Positions 58,797 to 64,000 of a stretch of 64,000 nucleotides of DNA are shown here, piece after piece. Within the stretch, counting starts at the first letter, position 1. The number at the start of each line of letters is the position of its first letter. The stretch is from Chitinophaga sancti (GTDB lineage Bacteria; Bacteroidota; Bacteroidia; Chitinophagales; Chitinophagaceae), in assembly GCF_034424315.1 (NCBI RefSeq), contig NZ_CP139972.1:6890501-6954500 (forward strand). Reading direction: 5' to 3'. The notes below the pieces were generated by a model. The model did not search any database. It saw only the letters and a list, made by a program, of their open reading frames with translations, and had not been told where the DNA came from. The position numbers were made by a program, and so were the translations under genes.

Positions 58797-61072
58797 CAAT
58801 TGAACAGGCTATTGCGCAAAATTAATGCTTGTCCGCCTTTTGACAACAATACATTTATCCATCCAATTTCGCCGGTGTTGAAATATTGTATTTTAATTTT
58901 GTGGTAGCCCTTTTTCAGCCCGATCACGCCTACTTTTTCTGTTGTACTATGTATGCCATCATTATCTGCTACTACTTCATCATCGATGTATAATACAGCA
59001 CCATCGTCAGAGAGCAGGTTGAAGGTATACATGCCATCTGCATCTACTTTTACATAGCCTGTATAAGTGATACCAAAGTCTTTCTTTGAAGCAAGGAAAG
59101 GACGTACATCCAGCCAGGCCACTGTACCTGAACTATCACCTTTTTCCGGCAGTTCTTTGGCTGTTTTAGGTAGGTTCTTATACACGGCAGAGAAACGTAA
59201 TCCATTGTTCGCAGGTTTTACACTTACTGCTTCCCTGTATGGTTTACGGGTATATGTAGTGCTGTATACATTACTCTTACGGCCGCCGGGCGTCACTTCT
59301 ATATATTGTAACACCACTGTTCCATTGTCCGGAATATTGATAGTGAATGGCTGCGTATATTGTTTACTGTTAGTATCCGGTCCCCTGCCATCGATGGTGT
59401 AATAAATGGCAGCACCTTTTACCCCCGGCGTGAGTGTGACGCTTGTGCTGGCAGTTGCGATCAGGGTATCTTTTAATTGTGCAGGTTCCGGTATTCTGAA
59501 GTGCACCCCTTGTTTATCGATCGCTGCTAATGCAGTGGGTGCTTTCTTCTGGAAGCGGCTCCAGCTGCGCTTTGCAACAGGAGACCAGGCGATCTCTGAC
59601 AAAGCCAGTGCCCGCGGCCATGCCATGTAATCTACATAAGTCTGATCAGGCATATATTCTGTCCAGATATTCGCCTGTACACCTTTGATGTATTGTTGCT
59701 CTTCCGCATTCAGGGAAGGTGGTAAGGGCTCGTAATTATACACGGTATTCAGTGAAAGATAATTACCGATTCTACCAGGTTCGGTAGCTTGCGGGCTTTG
59801 GTAATAATCGAGGTAGAGATAAGTATTAGGAGACATGATCACATCATGTTTTTCCTTTGCAGCAGCAATACCACCTGCTTCCCCGCGCCAGCTCATCACG
59901 GTTGCATTAGGTGCCAGGCCACCTTCCAGGATCTCATCCCAGCCAATGATGCTGCGGCCTTTGCTGTTCACAAACTTTTCCACACGCTGTATGAAATAAC
60001 TCTGCAAAGCATGTTCATCTTTCAGCCCCAGTTGCTGCATCAGTGCCTGTACCTGTGGTGATTCTTTCCAGCGATCTTTCGGGCACTCGTCGCCGCCTAT
60101 GTGGATATACCTGCCCGGGAAGAGTTCCATTACTTCAGTAAGTACATCCTGGAGAAAAGTAAATACAGAATCATTGGCAGGATTCAGTACTTCTTTTGAG
60201 ATCCCAAAGGTGGTCATTGTTTCGTATTGTTTGCCATAACCAAAGCTGGGAAATGCCGCCAGTACTGCCTGTGAGTGACCTGGCATTTCTATTTCAGGAA
60301 TGATGGTGATATGTCTTTCAGCAGCGTATTTTACGATATCCCTGATTTCATTTTGTGTATAATATCCTCCGTATGGTTTACCATCATAAGTATTGCTGCG
60401 GGCAGCATGGCCTACTACGGTTTCTTTACGCTGGGAGGAGATCTTTGTGAGCTGCGGATATTTTTTGATTTCTATACGCCAGCCCTGATCTTCTGTGAGG
60501 TGCCAGTGGAAGCGGTTAAATTTATACTGCGCCATCACATCGATGAACTTTTTTACATAATCAGGAGGATAGAAATGGCGGGCTACATCCAGCATTAACC
60601 CGCGATAAGCAAAGCGGGGGGCGTCGGATATTTCCACACCAGGTATATGGATGGCGGCATTTTTTTCTGCCGGCAGTAATTGCTGCAAAGTTTGTAAGCC
60701 GTAGAAGAGGCCTGCTGCATCACCTTTCAGCGCAATGGTACCATTGTTTACAAACAATGTATATGCCTCTGGTGCACCGCCCGTTTCCCTGATATCTATC
60801 ACGGCGGTGGATTTTACCTTAGGCACAGGCTTGTCTGAAGTTTCTACCCTGAACCCATATACGCTTTGCAGAAATGCATTGAGTAAACCGGCCGTGGTTT
60901 TAGCTGCAGCACCTTCATAATGAATGAGGGCATTTTCATTCAGCACAAAACTACCCGGCACACTTTGCAGTGACTTTGGTTCCGGGATGATCATGATGTC
61001 AGCTGTTTTCTTCTGAGCGGTGCCATAGAGGCACAGCAGGGCTGATAGAGTTGACAGGATTAGTTTTTTCAT
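58796..61072 (-). CDS. Secreted beta-N-acetylhexosaminidase, GH20
   Basis: The 758-residue protein has a signal peptide ending 'YGTAQ', an N-terminal GH20b domain (about 25-150, 'IIPEPKSLQSVPGSF'), the GH20 barrel (about 155-490) with 'RGLMLDVARHFYPPDYVKKF', 'FNRFHWHLTEDQGW', the catalytic pair Asp328-Glu329 in 'HIGGDECPKDRW', and 'WDEILEGGL'. A chitobiase-type C-terminal domain (about 520-610) and a PA14-like domain (about 640-758) follow, the latter probably carbohydrate-binding. It removes terminal GlcNAc or GalNAc from chitin oligosaccharides, glycans or peptidoglycan fragments. The downstream PLP enzyme gene overlaps it by one base. Confidence 0.95.
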   Translation of the reverse strand: MKKLILSTLSALLCLYGTAQKKTADIMIIPEPKSLQSVPGSFVLNENALIHYEGAAAKTTAGLLNAFLQSVYGFRVETSDKPVPKVKSTAVIDIRETGGAPEAYTLFVNNGTIALKGDAAGLFYGLQTLQQLLPAEKNAAIHIPGVEISDAPRFAYRGLMLDVARHFYPPDYVKKFIDVMAQYKFNRFHWHLTEDQGWRIEIKKYPQLTKISSQRKETVVGHAARSNTYDGKPYGGYYTQNEIRDIVKYAAERHITIIPEIEMPGHSQAVLAAFPSFGYGKQYETMTTFGISKEVLNPANDSVFTFLQDVLTEVMELFPGRYIHIGGDECPKDRWKESPQVQALMQQLGLKDEHALQSYFIQRVEKFVNSKGRSIIGWDEILEGGLAPNATVMSWRGEAGGIAAAKEKHDVIMSPNTYLYLDYYQSPQATEPGRIGNYLSLNTVYNYEPLPPSLNAEEQQYIKGVQANIWTEYMPDQTYVDYMAWPRALALSEIAWSPVAKRSWSRFQKKAPTALAAIDKQGVHFRIPEPAQLKDTLIATASTSVTLTPGVKGAAIYYTIDGRGPDTNSKQYTQPFTINIPDNGTVVLQYIEVTPGGRKSNVYSTTYTRKPYREAVSVKPANNGLRFSAVYKNLPKTAKELPEKGDSSGTVAWLDVRPFLASKKDFGITYTGYVKVDADGMYTFNLLSDDGAVLYIDDEVVADNDGIHSTTEKVGVIGLKKGYHKIKIQYFNTGEIGWINVLLSKGGQALILRNSLFN

Positions 61073-61962
61073 ACAATGTTATGTTTACATTCCGGATCTC
61101 TTTTAAAGCAAGAAGGACTTGTATTGAGCTTCTCTTTTTAAAAGAAATGCAGAAAGGGTGATGGCCGGATAATTTAATCAATATTAGTCAGAAACCCATC
61201 TTTGCCCCTGGATACCTTTACGGGCTTGTTCAGTTGCAGGGCTCATATGGTCTTATATGATCATGGATATTTCCAGGTACGTTAATATACACAAGACCGG
61301 GCATACTACTCCAGGAAATCCATATTTAATACCTTCTTTGTGCAGGGTGGTATCGCAGGTCATGAGTACATTTCCTTTGGCAGGTGTACTGTTCACCGCA
61401 TCCGGCATGCTTATTTTGCTGTTACCCCATCATGATGTTAGGTGCTGGTTAAGGCCTAAGGAGCACCTGGTTCTCCTGGATCATAGGCGATGGCAGTAAA
61501 GCCTTTCAGCTGTGCATATCATCCTGGTATGCTATTACTTTATTAAGGAATAGACCTGGATTCGTCAATCCCCATTTAAGGAATATATACCCTGGTAAAT
61601 AAGGATCCCGGGCTTCGCATCGACGAGCCATTGCATCTTTTGAGAGACGTTTGTGGGTGGAAATGTTGTAGTGCAAAGGCATAGACACACGGCGCAAATG
61701 CAATAGCAGCCTGCATGAAGAGTCGTTCCGCCGGCGAATTAAAATTGATAATAAAAATGTAATAGCCCGGGTTGGTATAAAGTTTGCTGTTCCTTTATCA
61801 CCTACGGGCTTATATTACAGGTAACTCTAATGGCTAGAGCTACGAAAGTTAAGACACATACTTTATTGAAAAAGAAAACGTGAAAATAGTTTTAATCAGT
61901 AAATTTAGTCCCTGGAATTTCGCCAATACACATAAAAAATTATTAAAAACAATCTAGTAAAG
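61073..61962. other. 890-nt region without a supported gene
   Basis: This is the longest gap in the window. It must hold the promoters of the GH20 gene (leftward) and of the nucleotidyltransferase (rightward; a weak TTG-N18-TAGTTTTA lies at 61866-61894). Two short frames, 61257-61499 (+) and 61506-61703 (-), have no family I recognise with confidence. The minus frame contains 'YLPGYIFLKWGL' and might be the remnant of a small protein. An interrupted inverted repeat, GTAATA-GCCCG with CGGGC-TATTAC, lies at 61759-61818. Confidence 0.45.
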
Positions 61963-62865
61963 ATGAAACCCACTTTGTTGATTCTGGCAGCCGGTATGGC
62001 GAGCCGTTATGGTAGTTTAAAACAAATACAGCAGTTTGGCCCTAGCGGTGAGACTATTATCGACTACTCTATCTACGACGCGATCAGAGCAGGTTTCGGT
62101 AAGATTGTGTTTATTATCCGCAAGGATTTTGAAGCGGAATTCAGGGAGATTTTTGAACCGAAACTGAAAGGACGCGTAGAAACTGATTATGTATATCAGG
62201 AGATGGACGCTTTCCTGGGTGGGTATCCTGTACCAGCGGATCGTACTAAGCCGTGGGGTACTGCACATGCAGTGTTGTGTGCTAAAAATGCAATCAGCGA
62301 ACCATTTGCAGTGATCAACGCGGATGACTTTTATGGCAAAGATTCGTTCGCGAAAATGGCGAAGTTCCTGGAAAATTCCTGCAAACCCGATGTATACAGT
62401 GTAGTGGGTTATCAGCTGAGCAAGACCATTTCTGAGCATGGTTCCGTATCCCGTGGGGTATGCGCTGCCGATGGTAATGGTAACCTGGCTGAGATCAACG
62501 AGCGTACCAAGGTATATAAAGATGGTGACAGGATCGTGTATGAGAATGCTGATGGCAGCAAGCACGAACTGGCGCCTGAAACACCGGTATCCATGAACTT
62601 CTGGGGTTTCCACCAGAATGTATTCGATATGAGCCAGGAACTGTTTAAGGAATTCCTGGAGAAAGACGGGGATAAGCCTAAGTCTGAGTTCTTCATTCCA
62701 ATTGTGGTGGACAACTTTATCCGGAAGAAACTGGGTGTCGTAAATGTACTGCCTACCGCTGCACAGTGGTTCGGTGTTACTTACAAGGAAGATGCTCCAG
62801 GCGTTCAGGCAAGTTTGTCAGCACTCGTGGAGTCAGGAGAATATCCTACCAGCTTATGGAAATAA
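61963..62865 (+). CDS. Sugar-phosphate nucleotidyltransferase-like protein
   Basis: The 300-residue protein has the nucleotidyltransferase fingerprint 'LAAGMASRYGSLKQ' at the N-terminus, 'GTAHAVLCAKNAI', and the metal-binding 'VINADDFYG'. It lies in the GT-A-fold NTP_transferase superfamily, which couples a sugar or polyol phosphate to a nucleotide. Conserved Chitinophagaceae/Flavobacteriia relatives of this length are usually annotated only as nucleotidyltransferases, so the sugar is unknown. The C-terminal part (about 225-300, 'KSEFFIPIVVDNFI', 'TAAQWFGVTYKEDAPGVQ') is well formed. It stands as a single gene before the ilvE leader. Confidence 0.82.
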   Translation: MKPTLLILAAGMASRYGSLKQIQQFGPSGETIIDYSIYDAIRAGFGKIVFIIRKDFEAEFREIFEPKLKGRVETDYVYQEMDAFLGGYPVPADRTKPWGTAHAVLCAKNAISEPFAVINADDFYGKDSFAKMAKFLENSCKPDVYSVVGYQLSKTISEHGSVSRGVCAADGNGNLAEINERTKVYKDGDRIVYENADGSKHELAPETPVSMNFWGFHQNVFDMSQELFKEFLEKDGDKPKSEFFIPIVVDNFIRKKLGVVNVLPTAAQWFGVTYKEDAPGVQASLSALVESGEYPTSLWK

Positions 62866-62868
62866 ACA

Positions 62869-62919
62869 ACCAGGGGTGTGTATTAACGTAAGTCGTTATA
62901 CAATAATTCTGCTGGTTTT
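62869..62919 (+). terminator. Possible terminator of the nucleotidyltransferase gene
   Basis: An 8-bp hairpin with one bulged base at 62880-62901 (GTATTAACG / CGTTATAC) sits inside an outer ACCAG/CTGGT pairing and is followed by TTTT. The structure is irregular, so the call is weak. Confidence 0.35.
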
Positions 62920-63008
62920 ATAAAAAAAGTATAAAGAAAAGGGCTTAAATTTCAATATTTTCAAAAAGGGAAGATTTGTTTGCGAAATCACTAAATTTTT
63001 TGATTGTA

Positions 63009-63039
63009 TTGTTTTTTATTTCAATCACCGATATTTTTG
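63009..63039 (+). promoter_or_regulatory. Promoter of the ilvE leader transcript
   Basis: TTG at 63009-63011, a 20-nt spacer and TATTTTTG at 63032-63039 (exact TAnnTTTG) give one of the best Bacteroidota-type promoters in the window. Transcription would start near 63043, about 25 nt before the leader ORF. Confidence 0.6.
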
Positions 63040-63067
63040 TACAGTTAAACAACAAAGCAATCCTCCC

Positions 63068-63181
63068 ATGTGGGTAAATAAAGACAATAACAAGATCAAT
63101 CACATCGTAGCTCAGCTCAACTGGGCTATTACGCTCATCGTGATCGTCGTTGTCATTATTAGCCACCAATATGGAGGATAG
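63068..63181 (+). CDS. Predicted branched-chain amino acid leader peptide (37 codons)
   Basis: This short ORF starts at ATG 63068 and ends at TAG 63179-63181. Codons 21-31 read ITLIVIVVVII, ten of eleven being Ile, Val or Leu. That is the hallmark of a leader peptide whose ribosome stalls when charged branched-chain tRNAs are scarce, as in enterobacterial ilvL. It lies between a strong promoter and a terminator, upstream of the ilvE gene for branched-chain aminotransferase. Read as a protein it could also be a small single-helix membrane peptide, but the context makes a regulatory role more likely. No homologue search was possible. Confidence 0.72.
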   Translation: MWVNKDNNKINHIVAQLNWAITLIVIVVVIISHQYGG

Positions 63182-63243
63182 GTAATTGTGTACAACCAAA
63201 TCAAAATATACAGCCTTCCTCCACCCGAGGGAGGCTTTTTTTT
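63173..63243 (+). promoter_or_regulatory. Attenuator: antiterminator pairing and terminator hairpin before ilvE
   Basis: The terminator is a 9- to 10-bp stem with one G-U pair (63212-63221 with 63227-63236) and eight Ts. GGAGGATAGG at 63173-63182, the last two codons and stop of the leader ORF, can instead pair with CCTTCCTCC at 63214-63222: nine pairs and one bulged T. A ribosome stalled on the Ile/Val run would leave this segment free and so block the terminator. One that reaches the stop would cover it and allow termination. Confidence 0.7.
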
Positions 63244-63281
63244 GCGCCTGTTATTCACTAGATTTCTAATATCTGAATTAT

Positions 63282-64000
63282 ATGTATAGCTATTACAACG
63301 AGAACACCATCATTTACGTTGACGGGGAGTATGTTAAAGCCAGTGAGGCCAAAATCGACCTGTATGGTCAGTCATTACATTATGGATACGCCGTATTCGA
63401 AGGTATCAGAGCTTATAAAACTGCTGCAGGAGAAGTAAAGATCTTCAAGGCAGAGGAGCACTTCGATCGTTTCCGTCGCTCGTGTGAGTTAATTCACATG
63501 CCTTACAACTATTCCAACGAGGAGTTGATCGCCGCTTGTTACAAGGTGCTGGAGCTGAACAACATGGAGGAAGCTTACATTCGTCCGCTCGCTTATTGCC
63601 CGCCAAACATGACCCTGAAAGCTGCATCCGAAATGAACGTGATGATCTGCGCATGGGAATGGGGTGCTTACCTGGGTGAAAAGCTGCTGAAGGTGATGAC
63701 CTCTTCTTATCAGCGTCCAAATCCGAAGGCATTTAAGATCGAATCCAAATCAGCTGGTTTGTACATCAACTCCATCCTGGCTTCTCAGGAAGCTAAGTCA
63801 CTGGGCTATGACGAGGCGCTGCTGCTGGATCTGGAAGGCTATGTAGCTGAAGGTCCGGGCGCTAATATCTTCTTCGAAAAAGATGGTAAGATCGTAACCC
63901 CACCTCCGGGTGCTATTCTGCCTGGTATTACCCGTGCTACAGTGATTGAACTGTGCCAGGAGCTGAATATTCCATTAGAACAAAGACTGTTCACTACTGA
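63282..64000 (+). CDS. ilvE: Branched-chain amino acid aminotransferase, 3' end outside the window
   Basis: About 239 residues are visible from the ATG at 63282 and the frame is open to the window end. It is a class IV PLP aminotransferase: 'DLYGQSLHYGYAVFEGIRAY' (substrate loop), 'HFDRFRRSCE', 'YIRPLAYC', 'IESKSAGLYINS' with the PLP-binding Lys156, 'DEALLLDLEGYVAEGPGANI' and 'PPPGAILPGITRATVIEL'. It catalyses the last step of Leu, Ile and Val synthesis (and the first of their breakdown), swapping the amino group with 2-oxoglutarate. Upstream lies the predicted attenuator, so ilvE, perhaps followed by more ilv/leu genes, would be controlled by branched-chain tRNA charging. Confidence 0.95.
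   Translation, partial: MYSYYNENTIIYVDGEYVKASEAKIDLYGQSLHYGYAVFEGIRAYKTAAGEVKIFKAEEHFDRFRRSCELIHMPYNYSNEELIAACYKVLELNNMEEAYIRPLAYCPPNMTLKAASEMNVMICAWEWGAYLGEKLLKVMTSSYQRPNPKAFKIESKSAGLYINSILASQEAKSLGYDEALLLDLEGYVAEGPGANIFFEKDGKIVTPPPGAILPGITRATVIELCQELNIPLEQRLFTT

Follow-up and report, generated by a model that had tools for sequence, protein, structure and literature searches.

The branched-chain-amino-acid transaminase gene ilvE of the soil bacterium Chitinophaga sancti is very probably controlled by a ribosome-mediated transcription attenuator, judging from the sequence of its 5' leader and of related loci. The leader lies close to the 3' end of the 64,000-nt stretch analysed here (the window), which covers positions 6890501-6954500 of an 8.42-Mb genome assembled as one contig and ends within ilvE. 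In enterobacteria, leader-peptide attenuators control the ilv, leu, his, trp and phe operons. The Chitinophaga leader resembles these in combining a short ORF carrying codons for the product amino acids, an antiterminator that competes with an intrinsic terminator, and a gene of the same pathway on its 3' side; it differs in belonging to another phylum, and is likened to them here by architecture. Ribosome-mediated attenuation itself is an established kind of control that in Bacteroidota has been hinted at and little described. Lopatovskaya et al. reportedly surveyed attenuation in 2010, possibly including Bacteroidota.

All parts of the leader are on the forward strand. A putative Bacteroidota-type promoter consists of TTG at 63009-63011 and TATTTTTG (TAnnTTTG) at 63032-63039, with 20 nt between them; we take the TTG/TAnnTTTG pair to be the promoter type of this phylum, and both the promoter and its start site are predictions. 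The leader ORF (63068-63181, ATG at 63068 and TAG at 63179-63181), supported by both sequence and conservation, would encode the 37-residue peptide MWVNKDNNKINHIVAQLNWAITLIVIVVVIISHQYGG, in which control codons 21-31 (63128-63160) read Ile Thr Leu Ile Val Ile Val Val Val Ile Ile. The 5' strand of the antiterminator (segment 2, 63172-63183) overlaps the last codons and the stop codon, and its 3' strand (segment 3, 63213-63223) is common to the 5' arm and loop of the terminator, making the two pairings mutually exclusive. Nine pairs join 63173-63182 with 63214-63222, with one bulged U at 63179; in full, the antiterminator comprises 11 pairs between 63172-63183 and 63213-63223 (-17.1 kcal/mol), and none of 300 mononucleotide shuffles paired as well. 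The last Ile codon ends at 63160 and the nine-pair antiterminator starts at 63173, 13 nt on. The intrinsic terminator predicted by folding (63212-63243) has a 10-bp hairpin at 63212-63236 (-16.4 kcal/mol) that runs into eight Ts, counting the last stem base, with the T run extending to 63243. Then follows ilvE (63282-64000 within the window, 301 residues in total), which scored 287.6 bits against TIGR01122 (ilvE_I; cut-off 245.55). The nearest named ilvE loci, over the 239 residues in the window, are those of Chitinophaga silvisoli (97% identity) and [Flexibacter] sp. ATCC 35208 (96%). A preceding sequence-only reading had described the promoter pair, the 37-codon ORF with ITLIVIVVVII at codons 21-31, the eight-T terminator, and the nine-pair alternative pairing with its start 13 nt past the last Ile codon, and each of these was borne out.

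A leader of this composition is rarely encountered by chance. Among 20,000 400-nt stretches drawn at random from the Chitinophaga loci compared here, 31 contained an ATG-started ORF of 12-70 residues with at least nine Ile, Leu or Val in 11 codons, and none contained one with at least ten; the 400-nt regions ahead of 524 other ORFs (each of at least 150 residues) held one leader-like ORF with at least nine and none with ten. Ahead of ilvE, by comparison, all 49 Chitinophaga-type loci had a leader with at least nine, and the same leader ORF was present in 50 of 50 Chitinophaga loci when the window was counted, with ten Ile, Leu or Val in 32 (the window among them) and nine in 18. The promoter pattern, TTG-N17..22-TAnnTTTG, preceded the leader in 49 of the 50 (absent from L049), against 159 of 20,000 random 90-nt stretches. 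The 208-nt leader (63043-63250) also folded more stably than all 200 of its shuffles (z = -5.3). Directly 5' of the leader ATG lies TCCTCCC (63061-63067), a possible segment 1 whose candidate partner is the terminal GGAGGA of the ORF. In 46 of 50 Chitinophaga loci, CCTCC stands no more than 3 nt from the leader ATG, but its pairing with GGAGGA outdid shuffles singly in only 2 of 46, and we regard this segment as suggestive and do not adopt it as firm.

To assess its conservation, we followed the leader through the phylum; the loci counted are kin and not independent. In the same family, 54 of 147 genomes matched this ilvE, 3 of them Chitinophaga, and 47 of the other 51 were examined (all but G019, G139, G047 and G043). 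A leader with at least seven Ile, Leu or Val in 11 codons was present in 44 of these 47 loci (at least eight in 43), where two loci, L154 and L155, repeat L063 and L062. In the three leaderless loci (L111, L132 and L142), ilvE sits inside an operon directly behind the end of a leuB-like gene (named by eye), and no leader was seen before the first gene of that operon either. Leaders with at least eight were found in 11 of 11 Chryseobacterium/Epilithonimonas-type loci (L051-L061), and leaders were present in four further Chitinophagales loci (L050, L062, L063 and L067). None was found in eight of eight Sphingobacterium/Pedobacter-type loci (L064-L066 and L068-L072) or in the six most distant loci (L073-L078). 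Among the former, one Pedobacter-type locus (L071) has a weak terminator-like hairpin (-8.7) preceded by a TTG-started, Leu-rich ORF with 6 of 11, and was counted as leaderless. Six Sphingobacterium-type loci (L064-L066, L068, L070 and L072) share a similar stretch upstream of ilvE, TATTGTAAA...CTAACTTAACAAAA.

A search across the phylum matched 118 of 247 genomes and added 26 new loci. Among those from other families with at least 54% identity, 11 of 14 had an Ile/Val/Leu-rich leader, one a doubtful Leu-rich leader (L156) and two none; at 39-41% identity, 0 of 12 had one. The leaders of L163 and L165 are Leu-rich instead of Ile/Val-rich. In the 46 distinct non-Chitinophaga peptides (from the 44 family loci plus L050, L062, L063 and L067), Pro follows the run in 38 and Gly-Gly lies at most six residues further on in 41. 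An automatic picker that requires five Ts in a row found leader and terminator in 119 of 138 loci, two of which (L168 and L170) lack a real leader; four others (L129, L140, L161 and L162) have a leader and no picked terminator. The alignment of relatives' ilvE 5' regions that the sequence-only reading had proposed thus revealed a conserved Ile/Val/Leu-rich leader ORF.

The antiterminator was conserved as a pairing across clades. We paired segment 2 with the terminator arm and loop and compared the result with mononucleotide shuffles, omitting 7 of the 119 loci (L110, L117, L164, L169 and L171, in which the wrong hairpin or unit was picked, and the leaderless L168 and L170) and retaining L156, whose leader is doubtful. 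Mean pairing energies were -15.6 kcal/mol in Chitinophaga (37 distinct loci; -7.4 shuffled), -16.0 in other Chitinophagales (41 loci; -7.4), -16.3 in Chryseobacterium-type loci (9 loci; -8.1) and -13.3 in other families (7 loci; -7.4), with 36, 39, 9 and 4 loci, respectively, at or below 5% of shuffles. Pairing with the arm minus its loop was weaker, reaching this level in 32 of 50, 24 of 44, 1 of 11 and 4 of 7. The spacing between run end and terminator arm was also similar: 44-56 nt in 50 Chitinophaga loci, 45-54 in 11 Chryseobacterium-type loci, 41-56 in 42 of 44 other Chitinophagales (the remaining two at 22 and 24) and 34-49 in 7 others.

The letters themselves differ most between Chryseobacterium-type loci and the rest, with pairing and place retained. 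Chitinophaga loci carry GGAGGATA (49 of 50) and CCTTCCTCC (50 of 50); in the 44 other Chitinophagales, segment 2 contains GGAGG in 36 and the terminator CCGCCT in 41; and in Chryseobacterium-type loci, GGUGGUGAG...GAUGG pairs with CCAUUCUCACCAC. Swapping strands gave only -8.2 for Chitinophaga segment 2 on Chryseobacterium-type arms, whereas segment 2 from other Chitinophagales (-14.3) or Chryseobacterium (-13.7) on Chitinophaga arms came near the values with their own partners. RNAalifold applied to 49 Chitinophaga sequences detected a double change in 1 of 26 pairs; the paired letters are near-invariant within the genus, and covariation therefore lies between clades. The sequence-only reading had looked for compensatory changes in both stems, and this expectation stands for pairing kept between clades of differing sequence and falls short within the genus. 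Elsewhere in the leader, the first half of the ORF paired with the control codons at -15.0 against -10.0 kcal/mol shuffled, with 28 of 46 at or below 5%. Pairing of the control codons with the spacer behind the stop codon reached that level in 10 of 46 (mean -11.3 against -8.8), and we do not claim it. The counterpart of spacer 63182-63211 is complementary to the control codons in some Chitinophaga (L047, the L014 group and L008), strikingly so by eye in L047 and the L014 group.

These parts suggest how the switch could work. Transcription would start shortly past 63039 and a ribosome would initiate on the leader ORF. When charged Ile, Val or Leu tRNA is scarce, the ribosome would stall on the run, best at codons 25-31, leaving 63172-63183 exposed; this strand would pair with 63213-63223 while the 3' terminator arm is still unmade, so that the terminator would be blocked and RNA polymerase would proceed into ilvE. 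When these amino acids are abundant, a ribosome at the stop codon would mask the mRNA to about 63190 and allow the terminator to form. The terminator would also form on an untranslated leader, in which the control codons would be engaged by the first half of the ORF. Coupling of polymerase and ribosome, the order of folding and termination in the cell are presumed in this scheme.

Equilibrium folding of the window leader with a ribosome placed along it gave, for an A site at codons 25-28, an antiterminator probability of 0.92-0.99, and for codons 29-32 one of 0.19-0.27. On codons 21-24 it was just 0.01-0.02, the terminator forming up to codon 24; from codon 33 to the stop it was 0, and without a ribosome 0.001, and the terminator formed. 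Across loci, the terminator reached a probability of at least 0.9 in 112 of 112 with the ribosome at the stop and in 101 of 112 without a ribosome. With the full terminator present, an antiterminator probability of 0.5 anywhere on the run was reached in only 49 of 112 loci (16 of 50 Chitinophaga, 20 of 44 other Chitinophagales, 11 of 11 Chryseobacterium-type and 2 of 7 from other families), and 71 of 112 scored above the average for shuffled versions of their own spacer (30 of 50, 28 of 44, 11 of 11 and 2 of 7). This weak switching at equilibrium arises because the complete terminator is the stabler fold in many loci; the antiterminator should benefit from the order in which the RNA is made. 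Folding with the 3' arm of the terminator unmade gave at least 0.9 in all 112, but shuffled spacers gave 0.88-0.95, and we do not count this as evidence; in that state, the antiterminator of Chryseobacterium-type loci persisted even with the ribosome at the stop codon (mean 0.52, below 0.1 in 0 of 11). The folding proposed by the sequence-only reading thus produced a switch with ribosome position in the window and a much less clear one in many other loci. Its central proposal, that attenuation logic of the enterobacterial type operates in a Bacteroidota, is supported at the level of prediction by conservation of the leader, the mutually exclusive stems and the folding switch of the window.

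Leaders of the same design precede other amino-acid genes in this genome. hisG (L188) lies behind a His leader, MNANVHTHHHHHFLPSR, and trpE (L190) behind a Trp leader, MTTFITNNHWRWHTIST; by eye, both leaders are followed by a hairpin resembling a terminator. Upstream of pheA, which encodes prephenate dehydratase (L189/L193, at about 6973000-6973418 of the contig, outside the window), two successive Phe/Tyr-rich ORFs (MIQQTTFGYFYGFYFFWYQN, MLRRFSLYFFYFFYFFFYVVKAGTLL) each lead into what looks by eye like a terminator hairpin. Of 40 genomes, all matched, and the 30 Chitinophaga loci examined all carry this double leader; an automatic search located both terminators in 12 of these loci and one or more in every one of them. 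Serial units also occur ahead of ilvE itself: two Ile/Val leader-terminator units were found in four of five loci of one other family (L159, L169, L223 and L225, with L224 the exception) and in a locus of another, L171; in these families few genomes matched this ilvE (4 of 80 and 1 of 57, respectively). No leader was seen in about 400 nt upstream of leuA in this genome. The two ORFs of the mgtCBR tandem attenuators of Salmonella respond to different signals, whereas the serial units described here repeat one amino-acid class and have a terminator each. What the two cases share is a leader with two short ORFs (excerpts of PMC3641672).

The peptide itself is conserved within Chitinophaga. Among 46 distinct ORFs, pN/pS over codons 2-22 was 0.137 (pS 0.516), close to the 0.127 of ilvE (pS 0.680), whose 21-codon stretches range from 0.047 to 0.259. 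On the ilvE tree, Fitch changes at positions 1, 2 and 3 numbered 30, 11 and 102 for codons 2-22 and 14, 6 and 67 for codons 11-22. The substitution pattern of the leader ORF is thus protein-like, in keeping with its predicted translation, and the concentration of change at position 3 in codons 11-22 speaks for selection at the protein level. Third positions of codons 2-22 changed 4.86 times per site, about half the 9.3 of ilvE, indicating an additional constraint at the RNA level. We considered whether the conservation of residues 2-22 is a by-product of RNA pairing, which is possible in part for codons 4-10 only and has the position pattern of codons 11-22 against it. In the control codons, the second base T is invariant and synonymous change is scarce (pS 0.258). 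The conserved QLNWAIT 5' of the run appears to go beyond what codon counting needs. Across genera, the run, its spacing from the terminator and the pairing are retained, but not the first half of the peptide. Among 31 database hits to the peptide, those with a name were called hypothetical protein and, once, Sec61beta.

Such enzyme-like conservation would be expected if the ORF encoded a functional small membrane peptide, with a hydrophilic N-terminus and one hydrophobic stretch, and ilvE were a mere neighbour behind a leaky terminator. We consider this highly unlikely as a replacement for attenuation, because the first half of the peptide is lost between genera while run, distance and pairing persist, because the amino acids of the run are the products of the gene behind it, and because the leader ORFs upstream of hisG, trpE and pheA obey the same logic; a membrane-peptide role in addition to attenuation is compatible with these observations. 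The presence of extra leader structure, in which the control codons pair with the ORF's first half in 28 of 46, could instead point to another 5' regulator, such as a riboswitch, a T-box or a bound protein, that acts on the terminator while the ORF senses nothing. An Rfam search of 60000-64000 and of the region around ilvE found no family at gathering score, the best match being Thr_leader (RF00506) at 22.3 bits against 55, and within 60000-64000 no T-box or known riboswitch matched at E values up to 1, Thr_leader being the only match. In the other leaders of this genome, moreover, the amino acid of the run fits the pathway, making such a regulator exceedingly improbable.

The hairpin might also terminate the gene upstream, a nucleotidyltransferase-like ORF (61963-62865, named by eye) that reads in the same direction, with an accidental codon run in a hydrophobic ORF. 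The chance of this appears negligible: a promoter pattern conserved in 49 of 50 loci lies between the two, leader and terminator accompany ilvE in many genera and are absent where it is intra-operonic, and an ORF with 10 of 11 such codons did not arise in 20,000 random stretches. Attenuation by a translating ribosome is the reading that we retain.

How far this control extends beyond ilvE may differ between clades. The order ilvE-ilvD-ilvB-ilvN was found in 49 of 49 Chitinophaga-type loci, with ilvA after ilvN in this genome. The ilvE-ilvD gap spans 232 to 449 nt in Chitinophaga-type loci, whereas it spans 12 to 134 nt in 14 loci (L050-L063). Many loci have strong hairpins in this gap, and TTTT lies close behind the strongest in 10 of 50, this genome included; here, the gap is 449 nt long with a strong hairpin and includes CCATTTTAAA, a candidate terminator. 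Given this long, hairpin-bearing gap, the attenuator may govern ilvE alone in Chitinophaga; elsewhere, it is more likely to govern the ilv operon. The sequence-only reading had the operon continuing past the window into other ilv and leu genes, which the presence of ilvD, ilvB, ilvN and ilvA supports for ilv as gene order; no leu gene is among them, and a single transcript spanning the hairpin-bearing gap of 449 nt is a conjecture. By eye, the gap (L081:1289-1737; L001-L049) contains a conserved GGTTTGG...TTGTA and repeated GTTTG elements, perhaps a second promoter.

Compared with the enterobacterial attenuators, the Chitinophaga element has ilvE immediately 3' of the switch, ilvD (in this genome) beyond a 449-nt gap, and an antiterminator strand that overlaps the stop codon as GGAGGAUAGG. 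Further comparisons draw on parts of the cited papers. The ilvBNC attenuator of Corynebacterium likewise places a leader ORF and alternative hairpins 5' of branched-chain genes, but in Actinobacteria and ahead of other target genes (PMC11857589, PMC10272879). Naville and Gautheret (2010) state that, before their own Firmicutes case, leader peptide systems were known only in Proteobacteria and Actinobacteria (PMC2965389). Within Bacteroidota, a map of Bacteroides mentions sORFs resembling leader peptides (PMC7366714), and a map of Flavobacterium psychrophilum, from the same phylum as Chitinophaga, gives clues for leader-peptide attenuation 5' of amino-acid operons, though its main text lacks the term ilv (PMC9723704). 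In the titles and abstract openings searched, with most subscription journals outside scope, there was no Chitinophaga ilvE leader and there were no serial same-class leader peptides.

Beyond the switch itself, it is possible, if somewhat doubtful, that residues 2-22 of the Chitinophaga peptide act themselves and that the element belongs to a wider Bacteroidota system of his, trp, phe and ilv leaders with serial units of the same class. The nascent or released peptide would then be active itself, in one case tuning the halt from within the ribosome tunnel, in the other serving as a small membrane peptide in trans. Among attenuator leader peptides, a precedent for such a separate function is peTrpL of Sinorhizobium, which differs in being a Trp leader from an alphaproteobacterium with low sequence conservation, whereas residues 2-22 are conserved within Chitinophaga (excerpts of PMC7298713). 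For specialists, the conserved peptide and the serial units would be the surprising part; if this proposal is true, serial units, at pheA in Chitinophaga and at ilvE in other families, would sharpen the response.

A conserved attenuator would imply that the ribosome keeps close behind RNA polymerase over the leader in these Bacteroidota, and such coupling cannot be taken for granted. A 2026 paper that sorts phyla into those with coupled and those with runaway transcription does not, in the parts available, list Bacteroidota as runaway, and its main text lacks the stem 'bacteroid' (PMC13323073). The leaders described here would provide elements with predicted signals for genes that Rfam leaves uncovered in this genome, and a conserved short ORF annotated as hypothetical would gain an explanation.
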